NCBI RefSeq assembly: GCF_010122465.1
Contig: NZ_WLZY01000001.1
Span: 1 to 64,000, forward strand
Reading direction: 5' to 3'
DNA from: Phytoactinopolyspora mesophila
GTDB taxonomy: Bacteria; Actinomycetota; Actinomycetes; Jiangellales; Jiangellaceae
Length of the DNA stretch: 64,000 bases
This document shows positions 34,126-46,114 of this stretch, one piece after another. The translations under genes were made by a program, and so were the position numbers. Every line of letters starts with the position of its first letter. The first letter of the stretch is position 1. The notes under the pieces are model-generated. The model did no database searches. It saw only the letters and a program-made list of their open reading frames with translations, and was not told the origin of the DNA.

Positions 34126-34212
34126 TAGGGGCGATTATCGCACCTCGCATCGGACGTGCAACGACACGCATGGTGCGGTGGGTGTAAGGCGGTAACGGCA
34201 AGGAGGCCACCG

Positions 34213-35409
34213 ATGGCGTACTACCGGCACGTGGGCGAGATCCCACCGAAAAGACATACCCAGCATCGCCGGCCCGACGGCGGGCTCTACTACGAGGAGC
34301 TGATGGGTGAGGAGGGTTTCTCCAGCGACTCGTCACTGCTGTATCACCAGAACATTCCGTCGGCTATCGCCGATGCCCAGCCGTGGGAGTTGCCGGATCA
34401 GTCACTGACGGCGAATCATCCGCTGAAACCCCGGCACCTGAAGTTGCACAATCTCTTCGAGGGCCAGGAGTGGAAAGCCCTCGACGTGGTGAACGGCCGA
34501 CGGCTCGTGCTCGGCAACGCCGATGTGCGCATCTCCTACGTCGTCGCGGGTGAGACGTCCCCGCTCTACCGCAACGCCATCGGTGACGAGTGTGTGTACG
34601 TCGAATCCGGATCCGGTGTGGTGGAGACCGTGTTCGGTGTGCTGCCGGTACGTCCGGGCGATCAAGTTGTGCTGCCGCGGGCCACGACACATCGCTGGGT
34701 ACCGAGCGCCGACGAACCACTGCGCGCGTACGTGATCGAGGCGAACTCACACATCGCGCCGCCCAAGCGGTACCTGTCTCGCTACGGCCAACTGCTCGAG
34801 CATGCTCCGTACTGCGAGCGTGATCTACACGGACCATCGGAGCCGTTGCTCGTGGACGGCGCGGATGTGGAGGTCCTGGTCAAGCATCGCGGGCCAACGG
34901 GGGTGGCCGGAACCCGCTTCGTGTATCCGCGGCATCCGTTCGATGTGGTCGGCTGGGACGGCTGTCTGTATCCCTACACGTTCAACATCTCGGACTTCGA
35001 GCCGATCACCGGGCGGGTGCACCAGCCGCCGCCTGTGCACCAGGTGTTCGAAGGGCATAACTTCGTCATCTGCAATTTCGTGCCGCGCAAGGTGGACTAT
35101 CACCCGTTGTCCATCCCGGTGCCGTACTACCACTCCAATGTGGATTCCGACGAGGTCATGTTCTACTGCGGCGGCAACTACGAAGCCCGCAAGGGTTCCG
35201 GCATCGGCCAGGGCTCCATCTCGTTGCACCCCGGAGGCTGGTCACACGGCCCGCAGCCTGGGGCTTACGAGGGCAGTATCGGCATGGAGCGCTCCGACGA
35301 GCTTGCGGTCATGGTCGATACGTTCCGTCCGCTGGACATAGGCGAGGGCGGATTCGCCTCGGAGGATCCGGAGTATGCATGGAGCTGGATCCGGAGGTCG
35401 CCAGGGTGA
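34213..35409 (+). CDS. hmgA: Homogentisate 1,2-dioxygenase
   Basis: Ring-opening dioxygenase of tyrosine/phenylalanine catabolism, an Fe(II) cupin enzyme producing maleylacetoacetate. The 398-residue protein has YYRHVGEIPPKRHTQ at its start, YRNAIGDECVYVESGSG in the first cupin, and the metal-ligand region YHSNVDSDEVMFYCGGNY with GSISLHPGGWSHGPQPG. AAGGAGG precedes ATG 34213. No fumarylacetoacetase or maleylacetoacetate isomerase gene is in the window. The next gene overlaps its stop. Confidence 0.94.
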   Translation: MAYYRHVGEIPPKRHTQHRRPDGGLYYEELMGEEGFSSDSSLLYHQNIPSAIADAQPWELPDQSLTANHPLKPRHLKLHNLFEGQEWKALDVVNGRRLVLGNADVRISYVVAGETSPLYRNAIGDECVYVESGSGVVETVFGVLPVRPGDQVVLPRATTHRWVPSADEPLRAYVIEANSHIAPPKRYLSRYGQLLEHAPYCERDLHGPSEPLLVDGADVEVLVKHRGPTGVAGTRFVYPRHPFDVVGWDGCLYPYTFNISDFEPITGRVHQPPPVHQVFEGHNFVICNFVPRKVDYHPLSIPVPYYHSNVDSDEVMFYCGGNYEARKGSGIGQGSISLHPGGWSHGPQPGAYEGSIGMERSDELAVMVDTFRPLDIGEGGFASEDPEYAWSWIRRSPG

Positions 35410-36278
35410 GGCAACGTGCCGAGCCGGAGCTGATGCAGGACCTGGTCGATGATGCCGGGCTCTTTCCCCCCACCGCGCTGAGCATGCCTGCGGCGGTGGC
35501 ACGGCACCGTGTGGACCAGTCCGGGCGGAGCCGGGTCCTGACCCACCGGTTTCTCTGCCCGGTTTCACGGGTGGCCGAGTTGTGCGCCGAACTGCGGGCC
35601 GGCGATCGCATCGACCTGGGTCTGATCGCCGACAACGGTCCGGACGGACTGGCACAGGCGGTGGCCGCGGCGACGGCCGATGAAGCGCTGCGGCTGGTCA
35701 GCGTCGAGTTTCCGCTGGCACGGACCGTGGAGAGCGATCCGCCGGCTGCTGTCGGTAGCGCCCTGGCGGTGATTCGGGAAGCGAAGGTCGCGGATACTGT
35801 CCCGGTGTTCATGGAGCCACGGGCGCTGGCGGACGTCGAAAGCCTGGCTCCAGCCGTCGCGCAACTGCAGGACGAACGACCGGTGGGCCTGAAACTGCGC
35901 TGTGGCGGTGTCCGGGCCGAGCTCTTCCCGTCCCCGGAACAGCTGGCTGCCGCGCTCATAGCCGTGACCCGCGCCGGTGTGGTGGTGAAGGCGACGGCCG
36001 GTCTGCACCATGCCGTTCGCTACACCGATCCATCTACGGGCTTCACCCACCACGGCTATCTGAACCTGCTGATGGCCACCGCCGAAGCGGTAAGCGGCAG
36101 ATCCGGTCTGGAAGAAGTCGCGGCAACGTTGCGCGTGACCGATCCGGCCACGCTGACCGCCAAAGCCGCGGCGCTGGATCCCGACCATGTGGCCAGGACC
36201 CGCGCAGTGCTCGTCAGCTACGGATCATGCAGCACCAGCACGCCACTCACCGAGGCACGGGTGCTCGGGCTCACCTAA
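35406..36278 (+). CDS. Conserved protein of unknown function coupled to hmgA
   Basis: A 290-residue soluble protein with no recognised enzyme motif. The repeating pattern of strands and helices (LGLIADNGPDGLAQAV, VPVFMEPRALADVE, GLKLRCGGVRAELFPS, VVVKATAGLHHAVRY) suggests a (beta/alpha)-barrel-like fold. GFTHHGYLNLLMA and the early LVDDAGLFPP look conserved and may mark a binding site. GTG 35406 overlaps the hmgA stop (GTGA) with GGAGGT 8 nt upstream, so it is made together with HmgA and probably serves aromatic catabolism. I cannot assign a reaction. Confidence 0.65.
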   Translation: MRQRAEPELMQDLVDDAGLFPPTALSMPAAVARHRVDQSGRSRVLTHRFLCPVSRVAELCAELRAGDRIDLGLIADNGPDGLAQAVAAATADEALRLVSVEFPLARTVESDPPAAVGSALAVIREAKVADTVPVFMEPRALADVESLAPAVAQLQDERPVGLKLRCGGVRAELFPSPEQLAAALIAVTRAGVVVKATAGLHHAVRYTDPSTGFTHHGYLNLLMATAEAVSGRSGLEEVAATLRVTDPATLTAKAAALDPDHVARTRAVLVSYGSCSTSTPLTEARVLGLT

Positions 36279-36357: not shown

Positions 36358-38952
36358 ATGGTGGAGCCGATGCTGAGCAAGCGTGCCACCGTCACGCGAG
36401 CTACCGCCCTCGAGTTCCGGGTCCCGTCGTCTCGGGGCGCTCGCGTCGACGGTTCTTACGAACACAACGTCCTGATCCGGATCGAGGCCGGCATGCGGGG
36501 CCGGACGATCGAGGGAATCGGTGAGGCCTCCCCGCGCGGGCGCGCCTTGACCGGCGATTCGAAAAGTCGGTCGTGGCGGTTCCTCCGCTCTGCCCTCCAA
36601 CAGCTGGAGGGCACCACACTGCGTGCACGGGCCGAGCCTGCCCGGGCGGATCTCGTGGATATCATGGCGGGCTTGCGTTCGCTGGCGGCGACGGTGTCGA
36701 AGGAGCCGGAAGCCGCGGCGTTCCGCGGGATGCTCGCCGGCGTCGACGCGGCGTTGGCCGACCTCGCGGCCAAAACGGTGGGCACGGCGCTGGCGGACTT
36801 CCTGGGTGGAACGCGGCGTCCGGTCGAGGCTGCCGCCGTGGTGCGCGCACACCGTACGTCGAGCCGGCTGCTCCGTGATCTGCGCGCGTGTGCCGGATAC
36901 CCGGCGATCAATCTCGTCGACATCGCCGGCCCCGACGCCGCAATCGATGCAGCGGCGACGGCAGCCAGTGTGGCCGGCCTCGGTACGCCGCTCTGGCTTG
37001 GGCTGGGGGGAACACTGACCCGCGCTCAAGGCGAGAAGCTCGTCGAGATGCTGGCCGACCGTATGAGCGCCGGTGAACTGCCCCGTCATCTGGTGCTGCA
37101 GCCTCCGCACGACTCGGTCACACCGGCCGACCTGGTTGAATGGCAGGCGATCGCCGACGTCAAGGTGCCGCCGGATCCGTCCGGTCCGGGCATCGTGTTG
37201 ATGGGCGACGCCGCCTGTGCCGCGACCGCCAAGAAGCTGGCCGGAAGCGGGCTGAAGAAGATCAGCCTGAATGTCCAGCGGGTGGGCGGCGCGCTGGCGG
37301 TCCTGGATGTCGCCCGGCAACTTCACACCGAGTACGCCGACGTCCGCCTGGGGCTGTCCACGGTGCCCCATATATCGGGGGTCGGCGCATGCACGATGGC
37401 CGAACTGGCGACCGCGTTGCCCAACTTGGACTATTGCGCGCTCTCCAGTTCGATCATCAGCGGGCCCGTCACCTGCGTGCCACCCGTCGAACACGACGAC
37501 ACACGTCGGATCCGTCCCGGGGAAGGGCCAGGCCTCGGCGGCACCGCCGTGCTCACACCCGCCACCCATTTGCTGACCCGCCATCTCGAGTGGCCGCGGC
37601 GCCGGGCACCGCGCTCGACGTACGGCGGTCTGCCGGTGAACAGGTTCGACACCGGCCCGCTGCAGCCGTTCACGACCCAGCGCGGCGAGATCAGGTCCGC
37701 CAGTCCGCTGATCGAGCGCGCCGCCCTGATACGGGGCCTGAATACCAGGCGGTTCTCCCGCGACGTCGTGATGGTGGAACACCCTCGCCTGGCCGAACCG
37801 TTGTGTTTCACGCCGAGCAAGACGGCTTCCACGGGTACCCCTGCGCATCGAGCCACGGTGGACAAGGAGCTGACCCGCCGGCTCCTCCAGGCTGCCGGTG
37901 TTCCGGTTCCACAGGGCGCGTCGTTCAGCGCGGCGAAGCCCGAACGGGCTGTCCAGTACGCCGCGTCGCTGGGTAAGCCGGTCGTCGTGAAACCCAAGAA
38001 CGGCATCCACGGGACCGGCGTCTCCACGGACCTGCGGACCGAACAAAGCGTGCGGGCGGCCATCGAATCGTTGGCGGGCACCAAATTCGGCAGCCAGCCG
38101 TTCGTCGTCGAGACCTACGTCCCGGGTGACGACTACCGCCTGCTCGTGGTCGGCGACCAGGTCGTCTCAGTGGTGCTGAAGAAGCCGGCGTCGGTGACGG
38201 GCGACGGCCGGTCCAGCGTTGTCGATCTCGTCATCGAGAAGAACAAGGAACGCCTGGAGAATCCGCACACACGTAGTTGCCTCCTCAGATTCGATACTGC
38301 CGCGATGCACTGGCTGCAGCGCCAGGAGCTGACCCCGGACAGCGTGCCCGAACAAGGCCGGCACGTACGTCTGGGCAGTGCCGGGAACATCGCCGCCGGC
38401 GGCGAGAGCATCGAAGTGCTCGACCAGACCCACCCGAGCATCCTCGACCTCGCGGTGCGAGCCGTGCACGCGGTACCCGGCCTCGACCATGCCGGGGTAG
38501 ACCTCATGGGAGACCATGTGCGCGGCACCGACGAGGCCGCGGCGATCATCGAGATCAACGGCAATCCCGCAACCGCCTTCAATCACTTCCCACTCTCCGG
38601 CACCCCGCGGGACGTCTCGAGTCATCTGGTTCTTCGGGGCTGTGAGCTGGCCGGATTCGATCCCGGCCCGCCCCGGGACGTGCTCTCGATGCGGATCGAG
38701 ATCGAAGGGCGCGTCCAGGGTGTCGGCTACCGGCAGTGGTTCGCGCGGCTGGCCGAAGACAACGGGCTGGCGGGCTCCATCCGGAACCTGCCGGGAGGCG
38801 GGGTCGAGGCGCTGGTGACGGGCGGGCCGCACGCCGCATGGGTAGTGGCGGCCGCGGCGATCAACGGCCCGCGACGCGCGTCGGTTCTGCAAGTGACCAC
38901 AACCCATGTGAGCGGCGTCGAGCCGGCCAACCGATTCGAGGTGCACCGGTGA
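36358..38952 (+). CDS. Enolase-like / ATP-grasp / acylphosphatase fusion protein
   Basis: An 864-residue three-part protein. Residues about 1-400 align in layout with the dipeptide-epimerase branch of the enolase superfamily, but the expected Lys pair, DxN, VEQP, ADES and NIKL motifs read INLVDI, LGLGG, LVLQPP, GDAA and ISLNVQ, so most catalytic and metal residues are gone. Residues about 495-775 are a cyanophycin-synthetase-like ATP-grasp domain (VDKELTRRLLQAAGVPVP, VVVKPKNGIHGTGV with K545, ETYVPGDDYRLLVVG, IIEINGNP at 731-737) that looks active. Residues about 777-864 are an acylphosphatase with the catalytic Arg in GRVQGVGYR (R792) and Asn in RNLPGG (N810). Probably an amino-acid-type ligase. 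ATG 36370 is an alternative start. Confidence 0.75.
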   Translation: MVEPMLSKRATVTRATALEFRVPSSRGARVDGSYEHNVLIRIEAGMRGRTIEGIGEASPRGRALTGDSKSRSWRFLRSALQQLEGTTLRARAEPARADLVDIMAGLRSLAATVSKEPEAAAFRGMLAGVDAALADLAAKTVGTALADFLGGTRRPVEAAAVVRAHRTSSRLLRDLRACAGYPAINLVDIAGPDAAIDAAATAASVAGLGTPLWLGLGGTLTRAQGEKLVEMLADRMSAGELPRHLVLQPPHDSVTPADLVEWQAIADVKVPPDPSGPGIVLMGDAACAATAKKLAGSGLKKISLNVQRVGGALAVLDVARQLHTEYADVRLGLSTVPHISGVGACTMAELATALPNLDYCALSSSIISGPVTCVPPVEHDDTRRIRPGEGPGLGGTAVLTPATHLLTRHLEWPRRRAPRSTYGGLPVNRFDTGPLQPFTTQRGEIRSASPLIERAALIRGLNTRRFSRDVVMVEHPRLAEPLCFTPSKTASTGTPAHRATVDKELTRRLLQAAGVPVPQGASFSAAKPERAVQYAASLGKPVVVKPKNGIHGTGVSTDLRTEQSVRAAIESLAGTKFGSQPFVVETYVPGDDYRLLVVGDQVVSVVLKKPASVTGDGRSSVVDLVIEKNKERLENPHTRSCLLRFDTAAMHWLQRQELTPDSVPEQGRHVRLGSAGNIAAGGESIEVLDQTHPSILDLAVRAVHAVPGLDHAGVDLMGDHVRGTDEAAAIIEINGNPATAFNHFPLSGTPRDVSSHLVLRGCELAGFDPGPPRDVLSMRIEIEGRVQGVGYRQWFARLAEDNGLAGSIRNLPGGGVEALVTGGPHAAWVVAAAAINGPRRASVLQVTTTHVSGVEPANRFEVHR

Positions 38953-39914
38953 GCCTCACCAGCTTGGAACGATTTGTCACCGACCGGCTCTCGCAACGTG
39001 TGCGGGCGAGCTCGGCGGTGCTCGAATACACCGCGCGAGAGCGCGGCCTCGAGACCGAACGGCTGAGCCGGGTGCTCGTTCTCGTGCATCTGCCGGACGC
39101 GGCGCTCACCTTCCACGGCATGAACGGACCCGATTCCAGTGAGGCCGGCCGCGTGTTCCGCACGATCCGCGACGGGCAACGATCGCTGCTCGACGCACGC
39201 GGCATTCCGGTGCCGCGGTGGGCGGTTTTCGCGCCGACGCAGTACAAGCGGGCCGAGCGTTTCGCCGCCCAGCTGGGCGGCCGGGTCAGCGTGAGGCCGG
39301 CCAGGCTGCGGGTTGGCGGGCGTGGAGCGGCCAGCGCCGGCGCCGACGAGTTCCGTTCGTTGTGGCGGCGGGCCGTCGGAGCCTACGAAACAACGAAAGG
39401 CGGGCCGGTGCTGGTCGAGGAGGAAGTGACCGGGCAGCGGCTGCACGTGTTCGTGGTTGACGGCGCTGTGGTCGCGGCGACCCGGTTCAGGGGCGACGAT
39501 CCTGCCGCCGTGCACCGGTTGATCAGCCGTGAATCCTCGATGACGGGCGAGGCGGTAGACGTGACCGACGAGGTCGACCCACGAGTGGCCGAGCTGGCGG
39601 TCGACGCCCTGCGCGCGGTTCCCGGTTTGCCGTACGGCGGGGTGGATCTCGTGATGCCAACGGCGGACGCCAACGACGCCGGTCCGCCACGGGCCGTCGT
39701 CACACACCTTGATCCAGCTCCCGCGCCGGTGGCGCATTTTCCCGTGCACGGGCCCCCTCGTGACGTCGCCGGTGCCATCCTGGACCATTACGTGACGTCG
39801 CCTCGATGGCGTACGGCCCGCGAGACCAGCCACCGTGCGCTGGCGATACACAGCGCCGCGGCTGCTGAGCCACTGCATACCGGATCCTTCGCGCCTATTC
39901 GCGCGGGTTCTTAA
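38949..39914 (+). CDS. Second ATP-grasp-like protein, apparently degenerate
   Basis: A 321-residue protein overlapping the fusion gene by GTGA. It follows the same ATP-grasp outline (LLDARGIPVPRWAVF, VLVEEEVTGQRLHVFVVDGAVV, VDVTDEVDPRVAELAVDAL, HFPVHGPPRDVAGAIL). The nucleotide-binding VVVKP stretch is SVRPAR, and the metal-binding EINGNP is THLDPAP, so ATP use is doubtful. Likely a diverged paralogue of the neighbouring ligase domain, acting as a regulatory or structural partner. It ends 60 bp before the convergent PLP-enzyme gene. Confidence 0.6.
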   Translation: MSLTSLERFVTDRLSQRVRASSAVLEYTARERGLETERLSRVLVLVHLPDAALTFHGMNGPDSSEAGRVFRTIRDGQRSLLDARGIPVPRWAVFAPTQYKRAERFAAQLGGRVSVRPARLRVGGRGAASAGADEFRSLWRRAVGAYETTKGGPVLVEEEVTGQRLHVFVVDGAVVAATRFRGDDPAAVHRLISRESSMTGEAVDVTDEVDPRVAELAVDALRAVPGLPYGGVDLVMPTADANDAGPPRAVVTHLDPAPAPVAHFPVHGPPRDVAGAILDHYVTSPRWRTARETSHRALAIHSAAAAEPLHTGSFAPIRAGS

Positions 39915-39973
39915 CGCATCCTTGATGCCCGGTCACCGGCAACCGCGGATTGACCGGATGGCGCCCGACCGGC

Positions 39974-42076
39974 TCATCGGCAGCTTCCGCAGCCACAGTA
40001 GACACCGGGGTCCAGATCGAGGTGCCGCACGATCAGGCCGAGCTTGTGCAGCGCGTCCGTGCTGTCAGCCAGGATGCGCTCGATCCGTTCGGTCCACACC
40101 CGGCCGCGGGTGTGGTCGAAGACGACCTCGGACACCGTAGGTGCTCCGATCGCGATGCGCAGTCCGCCGATCCACTCGTCGTCGTGCCGGTAGATCCGCA
40201 CCGGCTGGCCGAGCTGGAACGTGCGCCCTAGCACGGAGTCGTCGGCCGGTACCCGGTCGTGCAGGTCCTGCGCCAGCAGGCGGTGGGCTACCCGGGCTTC
40301 GTCCATGGTGAGTGGCCCGCCGTCCGGTTTGACCACCAAGAACGTGAAGATCGTCGGAAGGTCGTCAAGACCGCGCCGATCAGGTGCCGGAATCTGGGTG
40401 TACGGGCTTTCGACAAGTGTGACCCACGGGGTGCGCTCGAGGATCGCCCGAAGGCCGGACGCCAGCAGGCGAAGGACCTCATCGCGGATCTCGGGGGAGA
40501 CGTTGTGGAATGAGCGCATCTCGGCCAGTGCCGCTTCCCAGCGCAGCAGCAGCCCGACGTTCAGCCCCGAGCGGGCGGTGGCATGCAGGTCGGTCAACGC
40601 GGTGGGAACGTCGGCGCGCGTCAGGTACTCGGCCAACCCGGCGGGGAGCCGGCGTCCGCGGGCGAGGCGAGACACTAGCTCAGCAGGGATGATGACTGCG
40701 CCCGAGAACGGCGGGCCCCCGAAGAACTTGGAACCCGTGACGATCACGATGTTGCCGTCGCTGAGATGTTCGACGGCGGTGTGCTGGTCCACTCGCATCT
40801 GGGCGGCATCGACGACGACATCGAGACGGTCGCCGTACCGCTGCCGCCAACGGCGCACCGTGTCCGCGCGTGGCAACCGGATGCCGGTCTTGGAGCCCTC
40901 GACGACGTGCACCAGTGTCCGGTGCTGTCCGGCGTGCGAGGCCATCGCCTGCTCGATGGCGGCTTCGAGGGCGTCCGGAGCGAGCATGGCGCCGTGCTCG
41001 TCGCGGAGGTCGACCACCGAGGTGACTACCTGGTTTTCATCGAGGCCGGCGATCGGTTCGCCGGCGTGGCCGGCGCGGCCTGACGGCAATCGATCACAGA
41101 AATGGCGTCCGGCCGCCGCCTGCAGGCCGCCACTGCCGATCTCGTGTTGTCCGACGACGATGGAGTGAACTGGCTCGCCGGTGCCCAGTGCTATCAGCAG
41201 CGCCACGAGTTCGGCGTCGGTTCCCGACGGCGTGAAGACCACTTCGACATCGGCGGTGACGCCCAGCGCCGCAAGCAGGGTGTGTCGCATCACCGCCGCG
41301 TGTGCATCCGCGACCGGCCCCAGCCGGTCGGCCAATGCCGCCTCGATCAGCTGCTGGCGCAGCGTCGTGGCCGCTTCGAACGCACGCGGTGTGGGGGACG
41401 AGGCGGTGCACGAGCCCAACAGGCAGGTCCACGGCGTCGGGCTCGGTGGTATTCCGTAGGAGTTCAGCCCGGAGCGCCAGTCGATGGTCTGCCGGCTGTC
41501 GCCGCCGCTGGCGAGGAGTACGTCCGTGGGCGCGGCCAGCGGCAGCGCCCGGGCAGCGCGGGTGATCTCGTTGTCCGGGCAGGGCTCCGACGATTTGTCG
41601 CGCTCGTGAAGGAACTGGGCGATGTGTGCCGCGATGGCCCGCGCGGTGCCCGGTGCATCAAGATTGTCGGCGAGCCCGAGAATCTCCGTCGCGCGTTCGG
41701 AGACCGGTGAGAAGGCCGCGAGGGCTGCCGGCTCGCCACGTGCGGTCAGACCGGTGGCGCCGAAACACACCGCCGTCGCGTGTGCCAGGATCCGCTCGGC
41801 CCAGCCGGTGTGGACGTTGCCAGTGGCAGTGAGCTCGATGGCCTCACGGAGCACCAGAGCGGCACCGGTGACTGTGGCCGCGTTGTCCGGCCGCAAGATG
41901 ACGGTGGCGTCGGCGAGGACGAAGGACCGTTCCAGCATAGGGTCGATACGCACCGACAGTCCGGACAGCCGGGGGCCTATCTCCGGTAGTCCACACGCTT
42001 CGATGACGGGCCAGGGCACCGGTGGTGTCCGCCCGGAACTCTCCAGTACGGCGGGGGAAAGCGATGCGTCGGTCAC
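39974..42076 (-). CDS. PLP-dependent fold-type I protein with long N-terminal region
   Basis: A 700-residue protein. Residues about 1-200 match nothing I recognise. The remainder looks like an aminotransferase/desulfurase-type PLP enzyme: VVFTPSGTDAELVAL binds cofactor phosphate, VVVDAAQMRVD supplies the ring-contacting Asp, and TGSKFFGGPPFSGAV holds the probable Schiff-base lysine (K450). The C-terminus ends YCGCGSCR, a compact CxCxxC that could bind metal or serve in thiol chemistry. GTG 42076 overlaps the upstream decarboxylase stop (GTGA), so the two PLP proteins are co-produced. Reaction unknown. Confidence 0.65.
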   Translation of the reverse strand: MTDASLSPAVLESSGRTPPVPWPVIEACGLPEIGPRLSGLSVRIDPMLERSFVLADATVILRPDNAATVTGAALVLREAIELTATGNVHTGWAERILAHATAVCFGATGLTARGEPAALAAFSPVSERATEILGLADNLDAPGTARAIAAHIAQFLHERDKSSEPCPDNEITRAARALPLAAPTDVLLASGGDSRQTIDWRSGLNSYGIPPSPTPWTCLLGSCTASSPTPRAFEAATTLRQQLIEAALADRLGPVADAHAAVMRHTLLAALGVTADVEVVFTPSGTDAELVALLIALGTGEPVHSIVVGQHEIGSGGLQAAAGRHFCDRLPSGRAGHAGEPIAGLDENQVVTSVVDLRDEHGAMLAPDALEAAIEQAMASHAGQHRTLVHVVEGSKTGIRLPRADTVRRWRQRYGDRLDVVVDAAQMRVDQHTAVEHLSDGNIVIVTGSKFFGGPPFSGAVIIPAELVSRLARGRRLPAGLAEYLTRADVPTALTDLHATARSGLNVGLLLRWEAALAEMRSFHNVSPEIRDEVLRLLASGLRAILERTPWVTLVESPYTQIPAPDRRGLDDLPTIFTFLVVKPDGGPLTMDEARVAHRLLAQDLHDRVPADDSVLGRTFQLGQPVRIYRHDDEWIGGLRIAIGAPTVSEVVFDHTRGRVWTERIERILADSTDALHKLGLIVRHLDLDPGVYCGCGSCR

Positions 42077-43422
42077 GAATCGTAGCGGCTTTCGAGTTGA
42101 TCCAGCACGGCGACCTCGACGTCGGCCCCGGCTTCCAGGCGTGACGTGACGCCGTACAGGGTGGCGCCGTTGTCTGCGGACCCGGCCGGTGGGGCGTCGT
42201 GGGTGGCCCAGCGCAGATCATCGACGAACTCGTCGATCACCGGTACGTGCGTCGGGTTGACGATGAGATGGATACTGTCGGGGTCGCGCTGGCGGTCGAT
42301 CCGCCATTTGCGGGTCTCGAGCCGGTCAGCCACGGTCATCATGTCCACCTCGTCGGATCCGACGGCCAGCACACTCATGGGGGGATCGCCGATCACGTTC
42401 AGCTGCGGGATCGAGGCGATACCGTCTCGAAGCCGCTGGGTCGCCTGCATAACTGTGGAGAAGATCCGTCGGTAGCCTTCCCGGCCCTCGTACACGATGG
42501 CGGCCCAGGCGCCGGCGATCGCACCGCCCGGCCGGGTGCCGAGCAAGGTGGGCGAGGCGAGAATACCCCCGGGCCAGTCCGTGTAGGCCGCGAACTGGTA
42601 CCGACGCAGGCCCCGGTCGCGGTACAGGATCGTCGAGGATCCTTTCGGTCCGTAGCCGTACTTGTGCATATCGGCGGCGATGGACGTGACTCCCGGGACA
42701 CTGAAGTCGAACGCTGGGACCTGGTAGCCGAGTTCCCGCACGAACGGAAGAGCGAAGCCGCCGATGGTGGCATCGATGTGGAGGCCGACGTCCCGCCGGG
42801 CCGCGATGTCGGCGAGCTCTTCGACGGGATCGACGACGCCGTACGGGAAACAAGGCGCCGAGGCGCAGCCGAGGATGGTCGATCGGGACATCGCGGCGGC
42901 GAAGGCGGCTGGGTCCGCACCGTAGGTGTGGTCCACCGGCACCGGGACCGCCCGGACGCCGAGCAGGTCGGCAGCTTTCAGGAAAGCCGGATGAGCGGTG
43001 ACGGGCACGACCATCTCCGGCGCGGTGATTTCCGGGCGCTGCACGCGGGCCCGGTCGCGGTACGCCTTGACGGCGAGCACGATGCTTTCCGTGCCGCCCG
43101 AGGTCATGGTGCCGCCGGCCGTCCCGGGATCGGCGCCGAGCAGATCAAGGAGCATCCACACGACTTCCTTCTCCATGGTGGCCAGGCTAGGGAACGCGGT
43201 GGGGCCCAGGAGGTTCTCGGATGCGAACTGCTGGTAGGCCTCGTGTACGACGTCGTCGTGTTCGGACGCCGTGGAGTAGACGAGGCTCCAGATTCGCCCG
43301 CTGCGCCAGTCGACATCTCCGGAGCTCTTGGCACGCAGCCGGTCACGGAGTTCGCCGGCCGGCAGGCCGTGCGCTGGGAATCGGGAGAGAGGTTGATCAG
43401 CAGACCCCGGCGTTACGCTCAT
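42073..43422 (-). CDS. PLP-dependent decarboxylase/lyase of the sphingosine-phosphate-lyase type
   Basis: A 449-residue group II PLP enzyme. Motifs include TSGGTESIVLAVKAYRDRA, VTAHPAFLKAADLLG, HIDATIGGFALPF, the PLP lysine in DMHKYGYGPKGSS (K254), YTDWPGGILASPTLLGTRPG and a C-terminal IHLIVNPTH. The layout follows bacterial sphingosine-1-phosphate lyase more closely than glutamate decarboxylase, but no membrane anchor is present and substrate specificity is not inferable. ATG 43422 (MSVTPGS) follows GGGAG; the frame is open further upstream without protein-like content. First gene of the minus-strand pair. Confidence 0.78.
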   Translation of the reverse strand: MSVTPGSADQPLSRFPAHGLPAGELRDRLRAKSSGDVDWRSGRIWSLVYSTASEHDDVVHEAYQQFASENLLGPTAFPSLATMEKEVVWMLLDLLGADPGTAGGTMTSGGTESIVLAVKAYRDRARVQRPEITAPEMVVPVTAHPAFLKAADLLGVRAVPVPVDHTYGADPAAFAAAMSRSTILGCASAPCFPYGVVDPVEELADIAARRDVGLHIDATIGGFALPFVRELGYQVPAFDFSVPGVTSIAADMHKYGYGPKGSSTILYRDRGLRRYQFAAYTDWPGGILASPTLLGTRPGGAIAGAWAAIVYEGREGYRRIFSTVMQATQRLRDGIASIPQLNVIGDPPMSVLAVGSDEVDMMTVADRLETRKWRIDRQRDPDSIHLIVNPTHVPVIDEFVDDLRWATHDAPPAGSADNGATLYGVTSRLEAGADVEVAVLDQLESRYDS

Positions 43423-45148: not shown

Positions 45149-45212
45149 ACCGCTGAGCCTGCGCCGACCGGACTCTGTCGGTGTCAGCCGCTAGGTTGGG
45201 AGACTGCTGAGG

Positions 45213-45295
45213 TGCCCGAGGTGGGAGTCGAACCCACACGCCCAAAAGGGCAATGGATTTTGAATCCATCATGTCTGCCGTTCCATCACTCGGGC
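45213..45295 (-). tRNA. tRNA-Leu (CAA anticodon)
   Basis: The minus strand from 45295 folds as a class II tRNA. Acceptor GCCCGAG pairs with CTCGGGC, the anticodon arm ATGGA-TTCAAAA-TCCAT gives anticodon CAA, a long variable arm follows, and the T arm contains GGTTCGACTCC. The CCA end is not fully encoded. It decodes UUG. Confidence 0.95.
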
Positions 45296-45346
45296 ATCGT
45301 GGCTGAGCCGACCATCGCGACTCGGACCACGGAAAGGATAGCGTGG

Positions 45347-46114
45347 ATGCGAAGCCCGGACGAAGTCGCCCTCGTGATGAGACTGTGGGCCGATGGCATG
45401 AACAAGTCCGAGATCGCTCGTGCTACTGGCATCTCGCGGTGGACAATCCGCGAGTGGCTGTTCGGGAACGTGCCGGACTTCGAAGGTGGGCGTTCGGGAT
45501 TCTCGGGAGCTAGCCGGTACGGCTGCCCGGTATGTGCGGACCGAGTGGAAAGCCTGCCGCGCCCGGCTTACGTCTATCTCCTTGGACTGTACCTAGGTGA
45601 CGGCTGCCTGAGCGGCGGCAGGAGAGGGGTGTACCGGCTGCGTATCGCCTGTGCCGACAGCCACCCGGGATTGATGCAGGAGTGTGAGAATGCGATGTCC
45701 GCGGTGCTTCCGACGAAGGTCGGCCGTGTGCAGAATGTCGGCTACGTGGAGGTCTACTCCTATTCGAAGCACTGGCCGTGCCTGTTTCCGCAGCACGGAC
45801 CTGGCATGAAGCACACCCGCAAGATCGAGTTGGCTCCGTGGCAGCAAGTGCTGGTCGACGAGGATCCGCGTCCATTGCTGCGTGGTCTCATCCACTCGGA
45901 CGGATGCCGGGTGCTCAACCGTGCGGTGGGGACGGATTACGCGCCCTATCCTCGGTACGAGTTCACGAACGCGTCGGCCGACATCAGGGAGATCTTCACC
46001 CAGGCTTGTGATGCGCTCGGCGTCGAGTGGCGACGTAGCCGACCGCGGGTGATTTCGGTCGCGCGGCGTGCCAGCGTGGCCATCCTCGATTCGTTCATCG
46101 GGCCGAAGAACTAG
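45347..46114 (+). CDS. HTH and LAGLIDADG-like domain protein
   Basis: A 255-residue protein next to the tRNA-Leu gene. Residues about 1-40 form a helix-turn-helix (MNKSEIARATGISRWTIREWL). A CPVC pair (60-63) follows. YLLGLYLGDG (77-86) and LLRGLIHSDG (177-186) are the two spaced LAGLIDADG-type helices of a homing-endonuclease-like fold. The acidic residues needed for cleavage (the last D of each) are present. No intron or intein is seen nearby. The start at 45347 has GGAAAGGA 8 nt upstream; the open frame reaching back through the tRNA is spurious. Confidence 0.75.
   Translation: MRSPDEVALVMRLWADGMNKSEIARATGISRWTIREWLFGNVPDFEGGRSGFSGASRYGCPVCADRVESLPRPAYVYLLGLYLGDGCLSGGRRGVYRLRIACADSHPGLMQECENAMSAVLPTKVGRVQNVGYVEVYSYSKHWPCLFPQHGPGMKHTRKIELAPWQQVLVDEDPRPLLRGLIHSDGCRVLNRAVGTDYAPYPRYEFTNASADIREIFTQACDALGVEWRRSRPRVISVARRASVAILDSFIGPKN

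Follow-up and report, generated by a model that had tools for sequence, protein, structure and literature searches.

The 64,000-nucleotide stretch of DNA analyzed here, from the soil actinomycete Phytoactinopolyspora mesophila (contig NZ_WLZY01000001.1, positions 1 to 64,000; hereafter the window) carries four genes, A to D, at positions 36358-43422, which we interpret as a single small biosynthetic unit that works independently of nonribosomal peptide synthetases (NRPSs). In this interpretation, to which we assign a probability of roughly 0.58, the pyridoxal phosphate (PLP) enzyme C would supply an amino acid, the PLP enzyme D would yield an amine, and the ligase pair A/B would form an amide. 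It is supported by ligase residues that are intact in A and lost in B, together with an invariant predicted PLP lysine in C. Further support comes from other phyla, where relatives of C pair with unrelated ATP-grasp and decarboxylase families. These pairings lend strong, though indirect and sequence-derived, support to the amide-linked amine product that a preliminary description of this DNA had proposed.

Organization and conservation of the four-gene locus

Gene A (36358-38952, plus strand, 864 aa) encodes a fusion of a degenerate enolase-superfamily domain, an ATP-grasp domain and an acylphosphatase domain. Gene B (38949-39914, plus strand, 321 aa) encodes an ATP-grasp-like paralogue of the A ligase domain; a longer open reading frame (ORF) from 38736 is a mechanical call, and the true start is the GTG at 38949. 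On the minus strand, gene D (43422-42073, 449 aa) encodes a PLP enzyme of the sphingosine-1-phosphate (S1P) lyase/MfnA type, a putative amino-acid decarboxylase, and gene C (42076-39974, 700 aa) encodes a fold-type-I (class V) PLP enzyme. Within each pair the genes share 4 nt, A and B at 38949-38952 and D and C at 42073-42076, and the two pairs converge, leaving 59 nt (39915-39973) from the stop codon of B to that of C. Neither this gap nor the rest of the four-gene locus showed a promoter or terminator consensus. The layout of two coupled, converging pairs had been recognized in the preliminary description, and all four ORFs are confirmed in place.

C is present in five genomes of the host family, namely the window genome, three of its four relatives in the genus and one sister genus. 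In all five, with gene calls in the compared genomes made mechanically, A-B lies next to C-D. Protein identity within the block is about 40-80% across these genomes, lowest for B and highest for D. The surroundings of the block are common to four of the genomes, and that of the window genome sits elsewhere, with a homogentisate-dioxygenase-like pair on one side and a rhodanese gene on the other. Since these flanks differ from those in the other four, the four genes seem to remain a set as their neighbours change, consistent with the co-inherited unit previously proposed. Two genomes (G001 and G002) carry three tandem A-B pairs, with A and B kept together. No C was found in the other searched genomes of the host family, and a closely related strain (G003) lacks both C and a close A orthologue, retaining only paralogues of A at a second locus described below. 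Outside the family, the 397 sampled genomes of the phylum yielded one further clear C (G112, 41%).

An extra gene for a CysH-type phosphoadenosine phosphosulfate (PAPS) reductase follows C in three of the five block genomes, all Phytoactinopolyspora, and none adjoins C in the window genome or G005. In G001, a second CysH copy lies beside a sulfite-reductase-like gene. CysH was rejected as a pathway-defining component because it accompanies C in only three of five genomes, which also carry other copies.

Gene C represents an undescribed PLP enzyme family

C gave no sequence match in Pfam, NCBIfam or the Protein Data Bank (PDB). Neither PF00266 nor any NCBIfam class V model recognized it, and three C relatives likewise had no class V match in NCBIfam. 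Its AlphaFold model (predicted template modelling score, pTM, 0.84) shows a class V PLP fold preceded by an additional N-terminal domain of about 180 aa; among PDB folds, an Egt2-type carbon sulfoxide lyase and SufS match it best, sharing 14-18% identity. Seven residues are invariant across 46 C homologues: K450, the predicted PLP lysine; D423, its Asp partner; and Q426, R428, K396, R512 and R640. No cysteine is conserved in at least 95% of the 46 sequences, and identity as a cysteine desulfurase was rejected for want of a conserved catalytic cysteine. The close relatives with species names come from Phytoactinopolyspora alkaliphila, endophytica and halotolerans, and the distant ones share 29-41% identity. 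The 700-residue protein of aminotransferase fold noted earlier is therefore, as judged from the structure model, a probable class V-fold PLP enzyme of an undescribed family.

Relatives of C recur with amide ligases and decarboxylases in other phyla

Distant C relatives were located through genome contigs, plasmids and whole-genome searches, and their neighbouring genes were then compared; the first homologue search was pattern-based, which made the sampling uneven. At 14 loci from alphaproteobacteria and from Sterolibacterium, a betaproteobacterium, C forms a trio with an aromatic-type decarboxylase of PF00282 and a RimK-like ATP-grasp protein. The latter was assigned by alignment and weak profile matches, Pfam being blind to the protein, and one such record is annotated as a tetratricopeptide repeat (TPR) protein. 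At one trio locus (L064), the decarboxylase and the ATP-grasp protein are fused into a single 884-aa protein, and at another (L170) a weaker ATP-grasp match is found some 5 kb from C. Nine of the tested trio genomes encode no PF00282 protein other than the decarboxylase adjoining C, which makes chance adjacency untenable.

Other lineages fill the same positions differently. All 15 sphingomonad loci carry a divergent D-Ala-D-Ala-ligase-like gene instead of the RimK-like one. At a planctomycete locus (L013), an ATPgrasp_ST gene, for an ATP-grasp protein of the sugar-transfer type, overlaps the start of C, and a LysA-type (fold III) decarboxylase gene directly follows C. In three closely similar rhizobial plasmid loci, the annotated records show C overlapping the 3' end of a large NRPS-type gene by 4 nt, and a SerK-like serine-kinase domain (35 bits, cut-off 380) comes after C. 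These loci are L034 (S. medicae WSM419 pSMED03), L036 and L033; the protein after C is SerK/ParB-like, and L034 additionally encodes a SagB-like dehydrogenase and a phosphopantetheinyl transferase (PPTase).

The conserved C family is accompanied, in total, by decarboxylases of three kinds and by ATP-grasp proteins of at least four. Partner type tracks the C clades in the tree, with the exception of the RimK/decarboxylase type, which is spread over several. The kinds of partner found with a family that has no family model thus stay constant even as the partners themselves are drawn from unrelated protein families, which is strong evidence for a conserved, undescribed chemistry. The recurrence of C with an ATP-grasp protein, and often a decarboxylase, in other phyla supports one amide-forming pathway.

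The wider surroundings of some C relatives hint at surface modification. C-type loci lie beside flagellin, flgK, flgE or flbT genes in four cases (L062, L063, L168, L169) and beside fli genes in a fifth (L022), and three C relatives (L014, L061, L156) adjoin rml and flippase genes. The RimK-like protein at the flagellar-gene loci may carry TPRs, as does FlmG, a flagellin glycosyltransferase (PMC7591256). Flagellin modification by these C/decarboxylase/ATP-grasp loci is possible; most trio loci (L015, L017, L018, L021, L035, L064 and L170-L172) gave no flagellar match.

Domain architecture of the A/B ligase

Residues ~1-365 of A were assigned by fold to the enolase superfamily, as a domain resembling muconate-lactonizing enzyme (MLE) and dipeptide epimerases. 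The AlphaFold model of this domain, mostly well modelled, comprises a capping domain and a barrel fold as in the superfamily, and it matches mandelate-racemase/MLE and dipeptide-epimerase structures (3cyj, 3jva, 3dfy and 1jpm). The model of full-length A is good in this domain and in the acylphosphatase domain and poor in the remainder. In an alignment with paralogues, the three acidic metal ligands and two catalytic lysines of the superfamily are absent from A and its orthologues and all kept in a relative fused to CapA; the domain is thus very probably dead. The enolase-like domain reported earlier holds as a fold, without the residues for catalysis, and an active epimerase in A was rejected for the same reason.

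The CapA-fused relatives, which come from sister strains, keep the enolase catalytic motifs RVKG, WMDIN, LVLEG, PDEG and NIKAPKAGG. They are fusions of about 1200 aa that join an enolase-superfamily epimerase-like domain, CapA (PGA_cap) and an ATP-grasp domain (L126/L127, G001 C22; L130/L131, G004 C2:17743-21357; L132, G003 C2:222055-225546).

The ATP-grasp domain of A (residues 488-758) most resembles that of CphA (NCBIfam; PDB 7lgn), and its catalytic residues K545, E732 and N734 are invariant in A and its paralogues. The earlier assignment to cyanophycin-synthetase-type ligases is upheld for this domain. Its scores fall below the family cut-offs (199 bits against TIGR02068, cut-off 850; 217 bits against NF010623, cut-off 877), and the region that follows matches an acylphosphatase (PF00708, at about 776-862; catalytic R792 and N810 kept), not the C-terminal Mur-ligase-like domain. 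Cyanophycin synthesis was rejected on account of these sub-threshold scores and the missing second ligase domain. Among the tandem A paralogues, one (L011:17430-19934, minus strand) lacks the catalytic Arg and Asn of the acylphosphatase, unlike its neighbours. No relatives of A were found in viral contigs.

B matches cyanophycin-synthetase models weakly and is a shortened relative of the A ligase domain, from which a large loop has been deleted. Its ATP-binding Lys is replaced by Arg, and its metal-binding Glu and Asn by His and Asp, respectively; alignment shows that these losses are repeated in the orthologues of all four other genomes. B is accordingly predicted to be a catalytically dead pseudo-ligase serving as a non-catalytic subunit. 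As a paralogue of the A ligase it fits the ATP-grasp-like partner proposed before, in degenerate form and not as a second working ligase. A ligase that combines an active and a dead ATP-grasp domain with an epimerase domain that is itself dead would be architecturally new.

Gene D belongs to the S1P lyase family

D scores 68 bits against PF00282 (Pfam cut-off 27) and 348 bits against the S1P lyase of Symbiobacterium thermophilum (3mad), aligned over nearly its full length. It keeps the PLP lysine in an HKYGYGPK motif, as well as equivalents of S1P lyase K311, K317, Tyr105 and Tyr482. The position equivalent to His129 is Gly in all five D orthologues, while the remaining pocket residues are mostly kept; in S1P lyase, His129 belongs to the phosphate-binding site. 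No sphingolipid genes were seen near D. The S1P-lyase-like decarboxylase of the preliminary description is thus supported in its family, and its activity is a matter of prediction, D being closest to S1P lyases; its sequence is compatible with either a decarboxylase or a C-C lyase. We therefore treat D as a putative amino-acid decarboxylase.

A-type ligases at a second locus

Beyond A, the window genome yielded eight A-type ligase hits, mostly on contig C3. Six genomes have 5-13 such hits each, and 16 other family genomes searched have none, so the ligase family is expanded in one genus and its sister. A second locus (G000 contig C3:44787-69695; L093, L094), conserved in six genomes, contains several A-type ligases, an Asp/Glu racemase, ATPgrasp_ST, an asparagine-synthase-like protein, a CapA (PGA_cap)-ATP-grasp fusion and an acyl-CoA-synthetase-like ligase, with glycosyltransferases nearby. 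No C or D match was found in it. From its gene content it looks like an undescribed multi-ligase locus for a surface polymer, which favours the view that A-type ligases build or decorate a surface poly-amino-acid or glycan, a role that need not extend to the window locus.

A further multi-ligase protein, 1660 aa and annotated as hypothetical, is encoded on the A. tumefaciens plasmid pAt (CP048491.1; L186:5996-10978). It has three ATP-grasp regions, one YheC/D-like and two CphA-like, and adjoins type I secretion genes.

Proposed pathway and alternative explanations

ATP-grasp ligases form amides through an acyl phosphate. In the pathway that we propose for genes A-D, C would make or modify a non-proteinogenic amino acid, with beta-substitution as a guess at its reaction, and D would strip the carboxyl group from an amino acid to give an amine. 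A and B, probably acting as a complex, would use ATP to convert a carboxylate into an acyl phosphate and join the amine, or an amino acid, to it. The ATP-grasp domain of A would be the catalytic one and B the pseudo-ligase subunit, the dead enolase domain may bind substrate or act as a scaffold, and the acylphosphatase probably clears unproductive acyl phosphate. The order of steps, decarboxylation by D, the A/B complex and the roles of the dead domains are all deduced from the features described above.

Several observations weigh against this proposal. The nearest relatives of D are lyases acting on phosphorylated amino alcohols. Among the genomes searched, the four-gene block occurs in Phytoactinopolyspora and one sister genus only; the earlier expectation that it would recur in diverse actinomycetes failed, given the single further C in the phylum sample. 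No ATP-grasp or NRPS gene was seen near C at eight loci (L014, L061, L016, L023, L032, L037, L038 and L039), of which L016 is cut by a contig end, and the sphingomonad and NRPS loci showed no decarboxylase match within about 10 kb. Many of the trio loci also come from related strains, which inflates their counts; independent lineages number perhaps ten by our estimate.

A broader claim goes beyond the window. C may found a new PLP family around which a module is built in several phyla, with C as its constant core and any amide ligase and usually any decarboxylase as partners; the module would yield an unusual amide-linked amine that modifies surface structures of the cell, flagellin or capsule for example. 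We advance this generalization tentatively, as possible rather than probable. A related alternative concerns the window locus itself: A/B would attach amino acids or amines to a polymer of the cell surface (capsule, teichoic or flagellin glycan), with C/D supplying the amine. The second locus, with its A-like proteins, racemase, CapA-ATP-grasp fusion and glycosyltransferases in six genomes, speaks for such a role, as do the C relatives beside flagellar, rml or flippase genes. Yet the window locus has no polysaccharide, export or flagellar gene next to it, and most trio loci gave no flagellar match, which leaves this explanation unlikely.

Weak clues hint at phosphoserine or sulfur chemistry for C, namely CysH, the SerK-like domain and the carbon sulfoxide lyase fold. 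In a corresponding sulfonate or sulfur route, C would form a sulfur-substituted alanine (e.g., cysteate from O-phosphoserine and sulfite), D would convert it by decarboxylation into a taurine-like amine, and A/B would conjugate the product. The extra CysH gene after C in three Phytoactinopolyspora genomes, the sulfite-reductase-like neighbour of its second copy in G001, the SerK-like domain at the rhizobial loci and the best fold match of C all fit this route. It nevertheless strikes us as improbable, because the window genome and G005 have no CysH beside C, the SerK match is far below its cut-off, and a fold match at such low identity tells little about the substrate of C.

D could alternatively be a true lyase of phosphorylated amino alcohols, placing C-D in lipid or phosphoethanolamine metabolism unrelated to A-B. 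Its 348-bit match and the retained equivalents of K311, K317, Tyr105 and Tyr482 agree with this, whereas the His129-to-Gly change in every orthologue, the decarboxylases of two other families that fill the position of D in other phyla and the constant association of A-B with C-D make the chance of it slim. Finally, two unrelated operons might merely happen to converge, given that each pair forms its own transcription unit. The pairs do occur apart in part: A-type ligases are found without C or D at the second locus, and C is found without A, but equivalents usually replace A and D in the latter case. With functional equivalents recurring beside C and an identical four-gene block in five genomes, differently flanked in the window genome, mere coincidence is very improbable.

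Comparison with known systems

Cyanophycin synthetase CphA1 (TIGR02068, 7lgn) resembles A in the ATP-grasp domain; no part of A matches the N-domain or the Mur-ligase-like domain of CphA, and A carries the enolase-like and acylphosphatase domains instead. Dipeptide epimerases and the MLE group share the fold of the A N-domain, and the CapA-fused relative keeps their catalytic residues, whereas the metal ligands and both lysines are lost in A and its orthologues. Almost the whole of D can be aligned with the S. thermophilum S1P lyase (3mad), and D shares the PLP lysine with it and with MfnA-type decarboxylases, but differs from the lyase in having Gly for His129. The C core has the overall fold of Egt2-type carbon sulfoxide lyase and SufS, from which C differs in being at most 18% identical, in lacking an invariant cysteine and in its extra N-terminal domain.

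At the pathway level, E-64 biosynthesis (PMC12568646) uses a small fungal, NRPS-independent cluster of four genes, in which a PLP decarboxylase supplies an amine and ATP-grasp and ANL ligases make amides. The logic of a small NRPS-independent four-gene set combining a decarboxylase-derived amine with ATP-grasp amide formation is shared with the locus described here; the E-64 pathway differs in being fungal, in beginning with an oxygenase-made epoxide and, as far as the account consulted shows, in having no C-type enzyme. Staphyloferrin B biosynthesis (sbn genes; PMC12414870) likewise uses PLP enzymes to make an unusual amino acid, together with a PLP decarboxylase and ligation driven by ATP. 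Its ligases are NRPS-independent siderophore synthetases, and no C-type enzyme appears in the account consulted; no homology of C to SbnA/B emerged, no comparison aimed at it having been made.

Literature searches for this combination of enzymes yielded no description of it. A small amide route based on ATP-grasp enzymes is a known kind of pathway; nothing searched describes the C family, the ligase architecture or the recurring module. The locus offers a testable route to a new PLP reaction and to a new class of NRPS-independent amides.

Neighbouring features in the window

Upstream of A, on the plus strand at 34156-36278, lies a homogentisate-dioxygenase-like gene with a score of only 62 bits against a cut-off of 511. 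It overlaps the gene for a 299-aa protein without a family match, is divergent from an IclR regulator, and is not kept beside A in the other block-bearing genomes. On the other side of the locus, at 45211-46114, a tRNA-Leu(CAA) gene on the minus strand overlaps the start of a 300-aa plus-strand ORF, which contains a helix-turn-helix (HTH)-like stretch and a GLYLGDGCLSGG stretch suggestive of a LAGLIDADG-type endonuclease.

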